DNA of 64,000 bases from Marinomonas sp. SBI8L (lineage in GTDB: Bacteria; Pseudomonadota; Gammaproteobacteria; Pseudomonadales; Marinomonadaceae). Both the position numbers and the translations under genes were made by a program. The stretch is taken from NCBI RefSeq assembly GCF_001624705.1, contig NZ_JSEO01000009.1, positions 1-64,000 of the forward strand. The letters run 5' to 3'. A model generated the notes under the pieces. The model was not told the origin of the DNA, searched no databases, and saw only the letters and a program-made list of their open reading frames with translations. Shown piece by piece: positions 34,862 to 40,901 of this stretch (positions within the stretch are counted from its first letter, which is position 1; every line of letters begins with the position of its first letter).

Positions 34862-35974
34862 ATGTTTACAGCAAAAAGTTTTGGAAAGTGGGCGGTTGCA
34901 GGGTTAGCAGCCGCAACCTTAGTCGCTTGTGGCGGTGGTGAAAAAGCTGAAGAGCAAGCGAAGGTTGAAACTAAAGCCGAAGTGATCAACTGGAAAATGG
35001 TAACTACCTGGCCGAAAAACTTCCCTGGTTTAGGTACAGGTGCAGAGAAACTAGCAAAAAACATTACAGAGATGTCCGGTGGACGTCTGAATGTAAAAGT
35101 TTATGCAGCGGGTGAGTTAGTACCGCCACTAGAAGTCTTTGATGCTGTATCTCGTGGTACCGCCGAAATGGGCCACGGTGCGTCTTATTACTGGAAAGGT
35201 AAAGCGCCAGCGGCACAATTCTTTGCTGCGGTTCCTTTTGGATTAACTGCACAAGAAATCAATGCTTGGGTTAGTCATGGCGGCGGTATGGCTCTGTGGG
35301 AAGAGGTATATGCTCCATTTAATCTAGTCCCTATGGCAGCAGGTAACACTGGTGTTCAAATGGGTGGTTGGTTTAACAAAGAAATTAACTCTATTAATGA
35401 CTTCCAAGGCCTGAAAATGCGTATTCCTGGCCTAGGTGGTGAAGTACTCAAAAAAGTAGGTGGTACACCGGTTAACTTGCCTGGTGGCGAAATCTTTACT
35501 GCTTTACAAACAGGCACGATTGATGCGACAGAGTGGGTTGGTCCATATAACGACCTAGCATTTGGTCTTTATAAAGCAGCTAAATTCTACTACTACCCAG
35601 GTTGGCATGAGCCAGGTACAACGCTTGAAGCTATGGTTAACAAAACAGCATTTGATGCATTACCAGCAGATCTTAAGTTGATTGTTAAAGCGGCTGGTCG
35701 TCAGGCTAACCAAGATATGCTTGATGAGTTTACGGCTTTGAACAATGACGCTCTAGAGACTCTAGTTAATGATCATAATGTTCAACTTAAGCCTTTCCCG
35801 AAAGAAGTACTCGCACAATTGCGTTCTGCTTCTGATGAGACTTTGAAAGAAGTGGCGGCAGGTGATGAAATGAGTAAGAAAGTATACGACTCTTTCATGG
35901 ACTTCCGTTCTAAAGTGAGTAAATGGCATGCCGTGTCTGAACGTGCTTATATCAATGCTCGTGATGCTGACTAG
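34862..35974 (+). CDS. TRAP transporter solute-binding lipoprotein (DctP/TakP-like)
   Basis: Periplasmic binding protein for a tripartite ATP-independent transporter. The 370-aa protein has a lipoprotein signal ending LVAC (acylated Cys about 23), then an acidic/lysine tether. The DctP fold starts VINWKMVTTWPKNFPGLGTG and carries FQGLKMRIPGLGGEVLKKVG, with the conserved ligand-contacting arginine, and LQTGTIDATEWVGPYND. These features resemble the TakP/FcbT1 group that binds 2-oxo acids and related organic acids. It stands alone with its own terminator; the nearest dctQ-dctM pair (42458-44375) is over 6 kb away on the other strand and may be its partner. Confidence 0.88.
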   Translation: MFTAKSFGKWAVAGLAAATLVACGGGEKAEEQAKVETKAEVINWKMVTTWPKNFPGLGTGAEKLAKNITEMSGGRLNVKVYAAGELVPPLEVFDAVSRGTAEMGHGASYYWKGKAPAAQFFAAVPFGLTAQEINAWVSHGGGMALWEEVYAPFNLVPMAAGNTGVQMGGWFNKEINSINDFQGLKMRIPGLGGEVLKKVGGTPVNLPGGEIFTALQTGTIDATEWVGPYNDLAFGLYKAAKFYYYPGWHEPGTTLEAMVNKTAFDALPADLKLIVKAAGRQANQDMLDEFTALNNDALETLVNDHNVQLKPFPKEVLAQLRSASDETLKEVAAGDEMSKKVYDSFMDFRSKVSKWHAVSERAYINARDAD

Positions 35975-36000
35975 TTAAATCACTTCACTAGTAAGTACAA

Positions 36001-36035
36001 AAAAGGCTTCAAAGTTTAACTTTGAAGCCTTTTTT
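36001..36035 (+). terminator. Strong rho-independent terminator, TRAP binding-protein gene
   Basis: AAAAGGCTTCAAAG (36001-36014) and CTTTGAAGCCTTTTTT (36020-36035) form a near-perfect stem with a 5-nt loop and T-run. The A-run on the left lets it also work for the minus-strand gene ending at 36054, so it is probably bidirectional. Confidence 0.9.
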
Positions 36036-36053: not shown

Positions 36054-36743
36054 TTAATCTGTTTTACTGCCTAACTCTAGAAGTGTTGCATTACCACCAA
36101 CAGCGGTCGTATTGGTACTAATGGTTTGCTCCGTAGTGAATTGGTGAATAAAGCTTGGTTTAGCCTGATTTGAGTAATTGATGAAATCAGTTTCACTTAC
36201 TAGCTGACATAAAAGGCCTTCTTTATTCGCAAGTGTCTGCTTTATTTCAATCAAGTTCTTATCATCAGTTAGTGCACAAACGCCAGCGAGTCGTATGTCT
36301 TGTAAGTTCTCTTGATGCTCTGCTTGGTTTGCTTCTTGTAAGACACCTTCAGGTAAATAAGCATCTAAACTCGCTAGAAGAGTCTGACCCATTTCACCAT
36401 GATGAATCACACTGTTTCCTGCAACTAAGGCGGCATAAACCTGGCCTACAACAGCTGTAAATAGTTGCTCTCTTTGAGCTGACAAGTCTGTAATAAGGCT
36501 GACAAATACACCACGACCTTGGTTTGAAAGTAGGTTACTTTCTCCTGTAGGTCCTGGCATTAGCTGCTTAGCGGCAATTTGAGCTAGTGCATTATTAATC
36601 TGCCACTGAGCCATTTTTCTTGCATCACCTGTTAAGGTATTAAGGCTGTTTGTTAGCTTTTCAGCGCGTTGCTCAGTACCTAGTTGGTTCCATAGTGGAA
36701 ACGCCTGCATTGCCTTATCTATTTGTGTTTTATTAGCATTCAT
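36054..36743 (-). CDS. Separate C-terminal (ALDH-superfamily/CCM) domain of PutA
   Basis: A 229-aa protein directly downstream of putA. It carries features of the C-terminal extension of long PutA enzymes: LMPGPTGESN (about 76-85) parallels the LPGPTGERN stretch after the P5C-dehydrogenase domain of E. coli PutA. The end ISTNTTAVGGNATLLELG matches the conserved C-terminal motif, which closes with NTAAAGGNASL in E. coli. The middle resembles the Rossmann half of aldehyde dehydrogenases (RGVFVSLITDLSAQREQLF, VAGNSVIHHG) without a catalytic cysteine context. It has its own start with AGG 10 nt upstream, and 64 bp separate it from putA. It probably associates with PutA in trans; that is inference. 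Confidence 0.8.
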   Translation of the reverse strand: MNANKTQIDKAMQAFPLWNQLGTEQRAEKLTNSLNTLTGDARKMAQWQINNALAQIAAKQLMPGPTGESNLLSNQGRGVFVSLITDLSAQREQLFTAVVGQVYAALVAGNSVIHHGEMGQTLLASLDAYLPEGVLQEANQAEHQENLQDIRLAGVCALTDDKNLIEIKQTLANKEGLLCQLVSETDFINYSNQAKPSFIHQFTTEQTISTNTTAVGGNATLLELGSKTD

Positions 36744-36785
36744 AATATCTGTACCTAAATTCTTTTACCTGTATTGGCTGCTTAT

Positions 36786-36813
36786 AAATAAAGTGTAGCG
36801 TCACACTTTATTT
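36786..36813 (-). repeat. Hairpin spanning the putA stop codon
   Basis: AAATAAAGTGT and ACACTTTATTT form an 11-bp stem with a 6-nt loop, and the putA TAA lies inside it. No T-run follows on the minus strand, so it looks like an RNA-stability or attenuation element between putA and the separate C-terminal-domain gene rather than a full terminator. Confidence 0.6.
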
Positions 36814-39800
36814 CATAAAGGCCGCTAAATAATGAGGTCCGCCCGCTTTTGGTCCTGTGCCTGATAGGCCTTGACCTCCGAACGGTTGAACACCTACAAC
36901 GGCACCAATTTGATCTCGGTTAATATAAAGGTTACCTACACGCGCAAGCTCAGCAATGCGTTGGCAAGTGGTTTCATTACGGCTATGAACACCCATGGTG
37001 AGGCCAAAACCTGAATTATTGATTTCTTCAATCATATTCTCCAACTCGCTAGCTTGGTAGCGTACCAAATGCAGAATAGGGCCGAATTGCTCATCACCTA
37101 ATTGATTAATGCTGCTTAGCTCAAACGCAGTTGGTGCAATAAAGGTACCTTGATCGCATGCTTCTGGTAGCTTTGTTTGACCAATTAACTTAGCTTCTTT
37201 TTTCATGGTCTCAATGTGCGCAGCAAGCTTGTTCTGAGCTGTTTTATCAATCACAGGGCCAAGGTCTGTACTGTGGAACTGAGGGTCAGCAACCACTAGC
37301 TCTTGCATCGCACCTTGTAGCATGGTGATAACACGGTCAGCGATATCTGCTTGTACAAAGAGTACACGCAGGGCTGAGCAGCGTTGACCTGCTGAAGCAA
37401 AGGCTGAATTAACCGCATCTCTTACAACTTGCTCTGGCAATGCTGTGGAGTCAACTATCATGGCATTCTGTCCACCTGTCTCAGCAATGAGAGGAACAGG
37501 GTCGACACCACGAGCAGATAGCGCACGGTTAATACGTTGTGCTGTTCCTGTGGAGCCGGTAAAAGCAAGACCAGCAATACGCTTGTCAGAAGTAATTGCA
37601 TTACCCACAGTTGCGCCATCACCCGGTAATAGATGAATAACGTCGGCGGGAATGCCTGCTTCTAACAATAGCTCTACCGCACGCATGGCAATTAAGCAGG
37701 TTTGCTCTGCAGGTTTAGCAACAACCGTATTACCGACAACTAGCGCGGCAGTTACTTGGCCAAGGAAGATGGCCAATGGGAAGTTCCAAGGGCTAATACA
37801 AGCAAATACACCTCTGGCTTCAAATGTTTGCTGCTGTTGCTTGCCTCTAAAGTCAGTATAAGGCTTAGCTTGGGCTAGATTATCTTGGCTGAAGCAAGCG
37901 TAGTAACGACAGAAGTCTACCGCTTCTCTTACTTCATCAATGCTGTCTTGTATGGTTTTACCTGCTTCTTTGTGGCAAATTGCAACAAACTCAGCCAGAT
38001 TTTGCTCTAACAAGTCAGCCATCTTTAAAAGGCAAGCAGCACGCTCAGACATAGGTCTTGCTGACCAACTTGGGAAAGCGTCTTGTGCTTTGCTGATAGC
38101 AAGGCTTACTTGATCTGCGTCTGCCCAGTTTAGTTCACCCACTACCTGACTTTGCTTGTATGGGCTACGAACTAGATGTTGTATGTCTGTCGCTAGTTTT
38201 TCACCAGAAACTAATGGGCCTGCTTGCCAAGTGTTTTGCATAAAGCTTTGCACTTCTTTTTCAAATGGCTGCCATTGAGAGCTGATGTCGATATTTGGGC
38301 TAAAAGAGTTTTGGCGCTCTTCGAACATATCAATTGGTAGCTTGATATAAGGATTAGCCAGTGTTTTGCGGCTTAACAGGGTTTCAACAGGGTGATGAGT
38401 TAACTCTTCGACTGGGCATTTAGCATCCACCAGCCTATGTACGAAAGAGCTATTCGCGCCATTTTCAAGCAAGCGACGAACTAGGTAAGGAAGTAGGTCT
38501 TTATGGCTACCAACAGGCGCATAAATACGTACATTCACAGATTGATCTTTGATTACGCGGTTATAAAGCGCATCACCCATACCATGTAGGCGTTGGAATT
38601 CGAACTCAGCTGTACTTGCACCTGTATTGCCTGCAATCGCATTAATCGCTGCAATTGTATGAGCATTATGTGTTGCAAACTGAGGGAAGATCCACTGCCT
38701 TGCATGCTGGCTTAATAGGTAATGGGCGCAGGCAAGGTAAGACGTATCTGTTGACTCTTTACGTGTATAAACAGGGTAACCATCAAAACCTTTTTGTTGA
38801 CACAGTTTGATTTCAGCATCCCAGTAAGCACCTTTTACCAAGCGTACAGGGATCTGATCTCCTTGCTCTGCTGCAATGGCTGTTAACCAAGTTAGAACCG
38901 GAAGAGCGCGTTTAGAGTAAGCCTGAATGACTAAACCAAATAAGCCCCAGCCTTTACAAACAGGGTCTTGGTAAAGCTTTGCAAAGAGCGTCAAAGACAT
39001 TTCTAGGCGATCAGCTTCTTCGGCGTCGATAGTAATACCAACATTTTTCGCTCTAGCTTTGATAATAAGGTTTTTTACGCTTTCAAATAGCTCAGACATT
39101 ACTCGAGCTTCTTGTGCAACTTCGTATCTTGGGTGAAGAGCTGATAACTTGATTGAGATAGTTGGGTTTGCTGCGCTACCTTTATAAGTGTCTTTTGCCA
39201 CGCTATCAATTGCGCGCATGTAAGCATCAAGGTATTTATCAGCATCCTGTTGTGTCAGTGCTGCTTCACCTAACATATCGAATGAATAGCTATAACCCTT
39301 ATCACGATAGCTTTTACCGCGAGAAAGAGCTTCTTTGATAGAGCGACCTAGAACGAATTGGTGCCCCATGATTTTCATTGCTTGATACATGGCTTTTCGA
39401 ATAACAGGTTCGGATAAGCGGTTTACCAAGCGATTCATCAGATTAGCGGGAGTGCCATCTTCTTTCTCATTCATGCCAACCACTTTACCTGTTAGCATCA
39501 AGCCCCAAGTAGAAGCGTTTACAAAAAATGAATCAGAATTTTTTAAGTGGCTATTCCAGTCCGCAGCGCTCAGTCTGTCACGGATAAAAGCATCGGCAGT
39601 TTCGCCATCAGGCACACGCATCAAGGCTTCTGCTAGACACATTAGAAGAATGCCTTCTTTGGTATCTAGGCTGTATTCTAATAACAATGAATCAATCATG
39701 CTGCTGGCTTCATCATCAGCACGTACGGCTTGAATAAGCGCTGTTGCATTGTTCGTGGTTGCTTCAAGCGTTTCTTTAGAAGGCTTAGCAAGAGGCAGTA

Positions 39801-39915
39801 GCTGAGTTAACCAGCTCGCTTCATCCACATTGTATAAGGGAGAGATCAGTTCCCATAACTGGGCAGGTTTTTGCTTGATGAAAGAAGAATCAAGCACATC
39901 AATTGCGTTAAACAT
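36808..39915 (-). CDS. putA: Bifunctional proline dehydrogenase / L-glutamate-gamma-semialdehyde dehydrogenase
   Basis: Oxidises proline to glutamate in two steps: FAD-dependent proline dehydrogenase, then NAD-dependent P5C dehydrogenase. The 1035-aa protein starts MFNAIDVLDSSFIKQ with no ribbon-helix-helix, so it is not a DNA-binding repressor. The proline dehydrogenase barrel shows RLVKGAYWDAEIK, FATHNAHT and EFQRLHGMGD. The ALDH domain has FACISPWNFPLAIFLGQ, LAFTGSTGTAQ and the catalytic Cys846 in ASAGQRCSALR. It ends a few residues after QGLSGTGPKAGGPHYL, where long PutA proteins continue; that continuation is encoded as the next gene. GGAG lies 7 nt before the ATG. An AraC regulator upstream may control it. 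Confidence 0.95.
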   Translation of the reverse strand: MFNAIDVLDSSFIKQKPAQLWELISPLYNVDEASWLTQLLPLAKPSKETLEATTNNATALIQAVRADDEASSMIDSLLLEYSLDTKEGILLMCLAEALMRVPDGETADAFIRDRLSAADWNSHLKNSDSFFVNASTWGLMLTGKVVGMNEKEDGTPANLMNRLVNRLSEPVIRKAMYQAMKIMGHQFVLGRSIKEALSRGKSYRDKGYSYSFDMLGEAALTQQDADKYLDAYMRAIDSVAKDTYKGSAANPTISIKLSALHPRYEVAQEARVMSELFESVKNLIIKARAKNVGITIDAEEADRLEMSLTLFAKLYQDPVCKGWGLFGLVIQAYSKRALPVLTWLTAIAAEQGDQIPVRLVKGAYWDAEIKLCQQKGFDGYPVYTRKESTDTSYLACAHYLLSQHARQWIFPQFATHNAHTIAAINAIAGNTGASTAEFEFQRLHGMGDALYNRVIKDQSVNVRIYAPVGSHKDLLPYLVRRLLENGANSSFVHRLVDAKCPVEELTHHPVETLLSRKTLANPYIKLPIDMFEERQNSFSPNIDISSQWQPFEKEVQSFMQNTWQAGPLVSGEKLATDIQHLVRSPYKQSQVVGELNWADADQVSLAISKAQDAFPSWSARPMSERAACLLKMADLLEQNLAEFVAICHKEAGKTIQDSIDEVREAVDFCRYYACFSQDNLAQAKPYTDFRGKQQQQTFEARGVFACISPWNFPLAIFLGQVTAALVVGNTVVAKPAEQTCLIAMRAVELLLEAGIPADVIHLLPGDGATVGNAITSDKRIAGLAFTGSTGTAQRINRALSARGVDPVPLIAETGGQNAMIVDSTALPEQVVRDAVNSAFASAGQRCSALRVLFVQADIADRVITMLQGAMQELVVADPQFHSTDLGPVIDKTAQNKLAAHIETMKKEAKLIGQTKLPEACDQGTFIAPTAFELSSINQLGDEQFGPILHLVRYQASELENMIEEINNSGFGLTMGVHSRNETTCQRIAELARVGNLYINRDQIGAVVGVQPFGGQGLSGTGPKAGGPHYLAAFMK

Positions 39916-40109: not shown

Positions 40110-40901
40110 TTAAGTGAGGTACAGCTTTTGAAAGCGAACTGGGCTTATCCCTAATTCTTGAGAGAAAAGTGTGGTCATTGCGCTTTGGCTGGAAAAACCA
40201 CAAAGGCTTGCCGCTTGAGAGGCTGAGTAGCCATTGGCTAATAAAAATTGGGCATGTTTGAGGCGCTTTTGCTGTACATATTGATGGGGAGTTAGGCCCA
40301 TTTTCTCTTTAAACCTTTGATGAAATTGACTCACACTTAAGAAACAAAACTGAGCTAATTCTTGCATCTGAATTCGGCGAGAAAGGTTGTTGTCTATATA
40401 TTGATCCAACTTATCTATGTCTAATCGACGGCCAGCTGTTGTCGGCGTGACTATGTCTGTTTCGGTAAGTTGGTGGCGTATTGCACTAAGCAATGTGTTA
40501 CCACAGGCTCTGGCAAGTAGCTTGTCATCAGGGTGCTGTTCTAACTCGCTGCTTAAGCTGGTGGCCAATAGTTTTAATCTGGCATTAAGCTGGAAAAAGC
40601 TTGCCTGATCAAACATGCGTGAAACCAACTCGTACTCTTCTTGGGTAATGGCCTGTTGAGGAGGGATAGGCAAGTTCACTACCATGATGCGGTTTTCACC
40701 TAAACCTGCAAAAGCATGGCCTTCACTTGAAGGTACGACACAACCACCGCCAGGGGCGAGCTGCTTACCTTGCCCTTGAATGTCAAAATCCGTGTCGCCA
40801 TCAAGCACTATGACCAACTGATGATACTCATGGTCATGGGTGTGTGCCTGAATGGGCAAGGATAGTACATCAGAGGGCGTTAACACATTTCTCTCCGCCA
40901 T
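40110..40901 (-). CDS. AraC-family transcriptional regulator
   Basis: A 263-aa regulator with an N-terminal cupin-like sensing region (HTHDHEYHQLVIVLDGD, about 18-34; APGGGCVVPSSEGHAF) and two C-terminal helix-turn-helix motifs (about 165-263; IQMQELAQFCFLSVSQFHQ and ASLCGFSSQSAMTTLFSQ). It lies 194 bp upstream of putA in the same direction. Since this PutA lacks a DNA-binding domain, the regulator is a candidate activator of proline catabolism. That link rests on position only. No clear ribosome site precedes the ATG. Confidence 0.88.
   Translation of the reverse strand: MAERNVLTPSDVLSLPIQAHTHDHEYHQLVIVLDGDTDFDIQGQGKQLAPGGGCVVPSSEGHAFAGLGENRIMVVNLPIPPQQAITQEEYELVSRMFDQASFFQLNARLKLLATSLSSELEQHPDDKLLARACGNTLLSAIRHQLTETDIVTPTTAGRRLDIDKLDQYIDNNLSRRIQMQELAQFCFLSVSQFHQRFKEKMGLTPHQYVQQKRLKHAQFLLANGYSASQAASLCGFSSQSAMTTLFSQELGISPVRFQKLYLT

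Follow-up and report, generated by a model that had tools for sequence, protein, structure and literature searches.

The two genes and the elements of the flap

The putA locus of Marinomonas sp. SBI8L, studied here within a 64,000-nucleotide stretch of DNA (the window), holds two adjacent genes on the minus strand. The first, putA (36808..39915), encodes a 1035-residue protein in which the open reading frame list, Pfam and NCBIfam identify a proline dehydrogenase and a glutamate-semialdehyde dehydrogenase (GSALDH). The second (36054..36743) lies 3' of putA, 64 bp beyond its stop, and encodes a 229-residue protein, a catalytically dead half of an aldehyde dehydrogenase (ALDH) that is proposed below as the flap, or cover, subunit of a two-subunit PutA. 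The first-pass annotation had credited this small gene with its own start and ribosome site across a 64-bp gap, and AGGT at 36753..36756 (minus strand), read from the sequence 9 nt upstream of the ATG, is its probable ribosome-binding site. A programmed frameshift joining the two frames is excluded in the window species: the small-gene frame opens only 43 bp beyond the putA stop and so must have its own translation. Several relatives have small frames that open upstream of the putA stop, each with its own ATG and ribosome-like site.

The 1035-residue protein, hereafter the core, has the fused proline dehydrogenase and GSALDH domains of a PutA together with their catalytic residues. Matches to PF01619 (2.7e-102) and PF00171 (3.2e-115) together span it, catalytic motifs lie at residues 708, 785, 811 and 843, and NCBIfam NF008869 is matched over positions 4-1019 of 1042. 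In size and domains it resembles a type A PutA, with 1035 residues (about 1000 in type A), no DNA-binding domain and no C-terminal domain. The N-terminal ribbon-helix-helix domain that marks type C PutAs was not found: Pfam gave no hit, and the match to NF008772, the family of long Escherichia coli-type PutAs (1318 positions), begins only at position 95. That match covers positions 95-1106, and the small protein aligns to 1134-1318, as expected from the earlier claim that it corresponds to the part that follows in long PutAs. The core ends in GPKAGGPHYLAAFMK; its last residues, GPHYLAAFMK (36811..36840, minus strand), terminate the chain where type A PutAs continue into a C-terminal motif. The genome has a single proline dehydrogenase gene, so the PutA pair is its only known route of proline breakdown.

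The small protein contains LMPGPTGESN and NTTAVGGNATLLELG. It scores 14.4 bits against the Pfam Aldedh family, under the cut-off of 23, and the RefSeq label of the Salinivibrio copy is "aldehyde dehydrogenase family protein". Profile searches match it to the type A PutA 3haz (5.6e-33), over the N-terminal half of the GSALDH domain plus the C-terminal motif, and to the C-terminal domain of the long Sinorhizobium meliloti PutA 5kf6 (7.6e-22). The structure 3haz is that of the Bradyrhizobium japonicum enzyme. Comparison of the pair across relatives used 64 two-gene rows; because a few genomes were read twice, these comprise 60 different core ends and 58 different small proteins. The catalytic Asn and Cys motifs occur in all 64 cores and in none of the 64 small proteins, and none of the latter has the NAD motif; the Cys, Asn and NAD motif expected of an active ALDH are thus all missing from the small protein.

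In type A PutAs the flap consists of two elements carried by a single chain: a GPTGExN hairpin just before the catalytic Asn and the C-terminal motif. The two-gene systems distribute these elements reciprocally. The hairpin is present in 20/21 type A cores, in 0/64 two-gene cores and in 64/64 small proteins. Among long PutAs with a fused C-terminal domain it is absent from the core in all 41 rows with a usable anchor (4/45 had none) and present in 43/45 C-terminal domains. The C-terminal motif ends the chain in 21/21 type A and 45/45 fused PutAs and in none of the 64 two-gene cores, and it is carried by 64/64 small proteins; these counts apply a wider pattern to all rows, a narrower one having missed 20/28 non-split rows through variant letters. 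No two-gene core therefore unites the two elements in its own chain, as a type A PutA does. Four Vibrionaceae pairs show the same reciprocal pattern.

Conservation follows the same division. In the window, the core retains a hairpin remnant at residues 678-699 (37819..37884, minus strand) that has lost GPTGExN and kept the type A length. Of 443 windows in the GSALDH half, this 22-residue one ranks last in conservation across 33 two-gene cores (mean identity 0.22), and it is ordinary in eight type A cores near them in the tree (identity 0.60, with 154/443 windows less conserved). The length of the hairpin stretch is 40-42 residues in two-gene cores and 41-42 in type A, versus a median of 29 (26-47) in fused PutAs. 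Among 35 small proteins 30 columns are invariant, 21 of them in the two flap segments: eight at residues 64-78, within the hairpin motif (MPGPTGESNLLSNQGRG; 36510..36560, minus strand), and 13 at residues 204-225, within the C-terminal motif (residues 202-225; 36069..36140, minus strand).

Ancestry of the core and of the small gene

The first-pass annotation described the locus as a PutA split into two genes. One part of that description holds, in that the small protein is a free equivalent of the long-PutA C-terminal domain; fission of a long PutA does not agree with the position of the core. A tree of 80 cores unites the 33 two-gene ones (support 99) within a larger clade (99); type A accounts for all 10 remaining rows of that clade, which come from Endozoicomonadaceae, Marinobacter, Kangiella and Neiella among others. 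Forcing the two-gene and fused cores into a clade costs 547 log units and is rejected (p = 3.6e-6). This nesting, this rejection and the type A length of the hairpin stretch indicate that the core, judged from its sequence, is a type A PutA minus its flap and not a long PutA cut in two.

A true fission would mean that one gene for a long, type B-like PutA came apart into two and that their products still assemble. It would lead to the same function and would fit both the alignment of the small protein to the C-terminal domain of long PutAs and a quick tree, the best and the first obtained, in which a branch (93) separates free and fused domains from type A. It would also require several separate domain losses, and the neighbouring type A PutAs would have had to regain both a full hairpin and a C-terminal motif in cis. 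The hairpin stretch has the type A and not the fused length, and the C-terminal motif of the small proteins is nearest that of the near type A PutAs in all 63 tested, a comparison of motif identity from which free_L067 and fused_L179 were omitted for want of an anchor. With the cores nested among type A as well, fission is improbable.

Where the small gene, which encodes a fast-evolving domain, originated is a separate question. The small proteins form a single clade against 17 fused domains (98/96). A tree of the N-terminal half of the GSALDH domain again groups free and fused domains, weakly (47), as the quick tree had done. Such grouping is what would be expected had the small gene been captured from a long PutA as its C-terminal domain, the core alone coming from type A, and for 11 of 64 small proteins fused domains alone give the best hairpin match. 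Near type A alone gives it for 29, and for 24 it is tied or elsewhere. Constraining the small proteins to group with type A PutAs, either the near ones or all of them, raised the likelihood by 9.1 and 20.9, respectively, over the first tree; the approximately unbiased test gives these trees p values of 0.69 and 0.81, so that a type A source is not rejected. Capture is an unlikely origin, though one that retains real weight. It would leave the function of the pair as proposed below, and its probability overlaps that of the two-subunit enzyme, a reading that would hold whatever the origin of the small gene.

A more fitting description of the small gene than a severed domain is that of a dead half-ALDH paralogue which appears to have assumed the role of the flap. 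A bolder account can be offered tentatively, at somewhat less than even chances. A type A PutA would have duplicated part of its own GSALDH domain, the duplicate losing catalysis and becoming a dedicated flap subunit while the core lost its flap. On this view the PutA cover domain would have been invented twice, independently. A homomeric channelling enzyme would have turned into an obligate heteromer, with a separate pseudoenzyme sealing the tunnel and able, through its supply, to open or close it.

A proposed two-subunit PutA

The long-PutA C-terminal domain, as reportedly described by Luo et al. in 2016, resembles an ALDH Rossmann domain with a dimerization flap and seals the tunnel. The pattern of flap elements makes it probable that the Marinomonas pair is a two-subunit PutA in which the flap comes in trans from the dead half-ALDH paralogue, as a cover for the channelling tunnel. 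The core would hold both active sites. The small protein, predicted to be a degenerate Rossmann domain with the two strands of the oligomerization flap (the GPTGExN hairpin and the C-terminal motif), would dock on the GSALDH half, probably at 1:1, and lay its flap over the tunnel to seal it. An inter-chain flap of this kind would take the part played in type A homodimers by the partner protomer and in long PutAs by the built-in C-terminal domain. The arrangement would have arisen within a type A lineage, the core hairpin decaying in sequence and not in length and the core C-terminal motif being lost, with both elements retained on the small gene. Assembly in trans, with the small protein as one of two subunits of the enzyme, had been suggested earlier and is very probably right.

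Several points weigh against this interpretation. The tree of cores comes from a quick search with support values of one kind (SH-aLRT, the Shimodaira-Hasegawa-like approximate likelihood ratio test). In the tree of the GSALDH N-terminal half, the Psychrobacter and Allopseudospirillum cores stand with a fused row (99), apart from the rest of the two-gene cores; full-length cores reject this placement (p = 3.6e-48). The catalytic Glu, by a loose motif pattern, is matched in 9/64 small proteins. Leakage from the tunnel when the small protein is missing is itself inferred, and the complex, its binding and its activity are predictions.

The small protein might instead do another job, as a regulator, a chaperone for PutA folding, or an adaptor to the membrane or to PutP, leaving the tunnel uncovered. 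Its gene often lies between putA and putP, and the built-in domain of long PutAs has been proposed to take part in functional switching (PMC5293562). Such a role is nonetheless quite unlikely, given that the conserved residues of the small protein are the very flap strands missing from the core, which points to structural replacement.

The tight spacing of the two genes in most relatives suggests coupled, roughly equal synthesis of their products. A further proposal was that a hairpin at the putA stop tunes their ratio. A stem-loop is present there in the window, yet 38 of 200 shuffled sequences fold equally well or better. The corresponding stretch of a sister species, whose small protein is 96% identical, has no comparable fold, and in most relatives the gap (about -4 to 27 bp) leaves no room for one. 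The proposal is accordingly unsupported.

Known PutA classes resemble the pair most closely. Type A PutA (3haz) shares with the core its length, domain set, hairpin spacing and phylogenetic neighbourhood; in that class both flap elements belong to the enzyme's own chain, whereas here both reside on a second protein. The type A homodimer is domain-swapped, the oligomerization domain of one protomer covering the tunnel of the other (PMC5786444). Type B PutAs (Rhodobacter capsulatus; S. meliloti 5kf6) likewise carry hairpin and terminal motif on a noncatalytic ALDH-like domain and lack them in the GSALDH domain, and in one type B PutA the domain is described as aiding ALDH activity and channelling (PMC5293562). 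Type B is a single chain, however; in the pair the ALDH-like domain is on a separate gene, the core derives from type A and stands apart from fused long PutAs, and its hairpin has degenerated without being deleted. The C-terminal domain of type C PutA (E. coli) relates to the pair in the same way as that of type B.

A likely member of the two-gene group already has a name. In Vibrio campbellii, an operon called putBCP has the gene order found at the V. campbellii locus in this survey, namely putA, a 235-residue small gene and putP. In that transcriptome study the middle gene is given as the Δ1-pyrroline-5-carboxylate dehydrogenase "PutC", and all three genes are down-regulated together in one mutant (PMC3858670). 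On the strength of the matching order, "PutC" is probably the small gene under the wrong name, wrong because the catalytic residues sit in the first gene. Within the openly licensed (Creative Commons) literature searched, of which coverage was partial, no description of a two-gene or heteromeric PutA was recognized, and novelty is thus not claimed.

PutA is a model for substrate channelling. A tunnel cover on its own gene could be added, omitted or titrated without cutting the enzyme, which would permit a direct test of what the cover contributes to channelling, oligomerization and GSALDH activity. The system would also provide a clear case of a homomer turned heteromer through a dead paralogue, with an outcome convergent with the domain built into long PutAs.

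Occurrence and neighbourhood of the pair

The small gene is an open frame in 48/49 Marinomonas genomes; the one exception, a genome 77% complete, likewise lacks a PutA match at E <= 1e-100. Purifying selection acts on both genes, with ratios of nonsynonymous to synonymous substitution rates (dN/dS) of 0.012-0.122 for the small gene and 0.020-0.097 for the core (estimates for 18/19 pairs each). Decay, misassembly or sequencing error, for which nothing was found in favour, would have to account for this retention, for the low dN/dS and for the spread over several families described next, and its probability is negligible; the first-pass annotation had already argued against simple decay.

The survey of relatives called for earlier found the same arrangement in Marinomonas, Marinobacterium, Neptunomonas, Nitrincola, Psychrobacter, Psychromonas and several Vibrionaceae; numerous marine bacteria thus retain the pair. 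A free-standing small frame occurs in 28/293 genomes of the order-level sample (by a count of rows). Family f37, tied to Marinobacterium, Nitrincola and Neptunomonas by loci shared with named records, has it at full length in 40/116 genomes and in pieces in one more; family f35 has it in 18/99, which make up all 18/18 genomes of genus g57 (tied to Psychrobacter in the same way), and family f16 in 2/100. The best 80 of 448 named relatives comprise 52 two-gene, 17 fused and 11 type A systems, counts that are lower bounds, and four Vibrionaceae records (Salinivibrio, Photobacterium and two Vibrio) have the pair. In a class-wide draw, 10/369 genomes match at E <= 1e-30, a threshold at which distant members, those of Vibrionaceae for example, may go unnoticed, and a free small protein appears only in the window genome, which makes the pair a minority arrangement.

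A reverse check covered 10 genomes from pair-bearing genera that gave no full-length free hit, with PutA matched at E <= 1e-100. Four lack PutA and three have a fused PutA only. In G357 the match is truncated by a contig end and its hairpin stretch is fused-like; in G367 the contig breaks off 53 bp after a core of the two-gene type; and in G404 the small gene is fragmented. Among these 10, no two-gene core with room for a small gene was without one.

Several loci depart from the simple pattern. Six f37 genomes (G347, G354, G356, G362, G366 and G369) have both a two-gene small gene and a long fused PutA frame of 1206-1275 residues. A 148-residue frame matching the C-terminal-domain profile lies just downstream of a fused PutA (G380:C34:93810-94226). 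Two two-gene loci, L057 and L072, have short putA frames of 921 and 652 residues between stops, perhaps through assembly frameshifts; both are included in the counts, and L072 was excluded from the 80-core tree. Both genes of the f16 genome G529 nest within Marinomonas in the trees, indicating that they moved together; by this phylogenetic evidence the pair was transferred as one unit.

In every two-gene locus opened, the small gene lies directly 3' of putA on the same strand. The gap is mostly -4 to 27 bp among relatives, typically with a GGAG-like site. Longer gaps are found in the window, in the sister species (73 bp) and in a few others (70, 73 and 163 bp). In Marinomonas aquimarina (L004 and L055) the 163 bp between the genes, against 12-27 bp in most relatives, include what seems to be an inverted repeat of large size. 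The gene putP comes next after the pair in 19/56 loci and is absent beside it in the 11 Marinomonas and 22 Psychrobacter loci. Upstream of putA, the window has an AraC-family regulator (40110..40901, minus strand), and a regulator of this type is present at 28/56 two-gene loci. On the other side, a DctP-type gene on the opposite strand ends at 35974. Between it and the small gene, an inverted repeat flanked by T runs (35995-36030, read by eye) looks like a shared bidirectional terminator.

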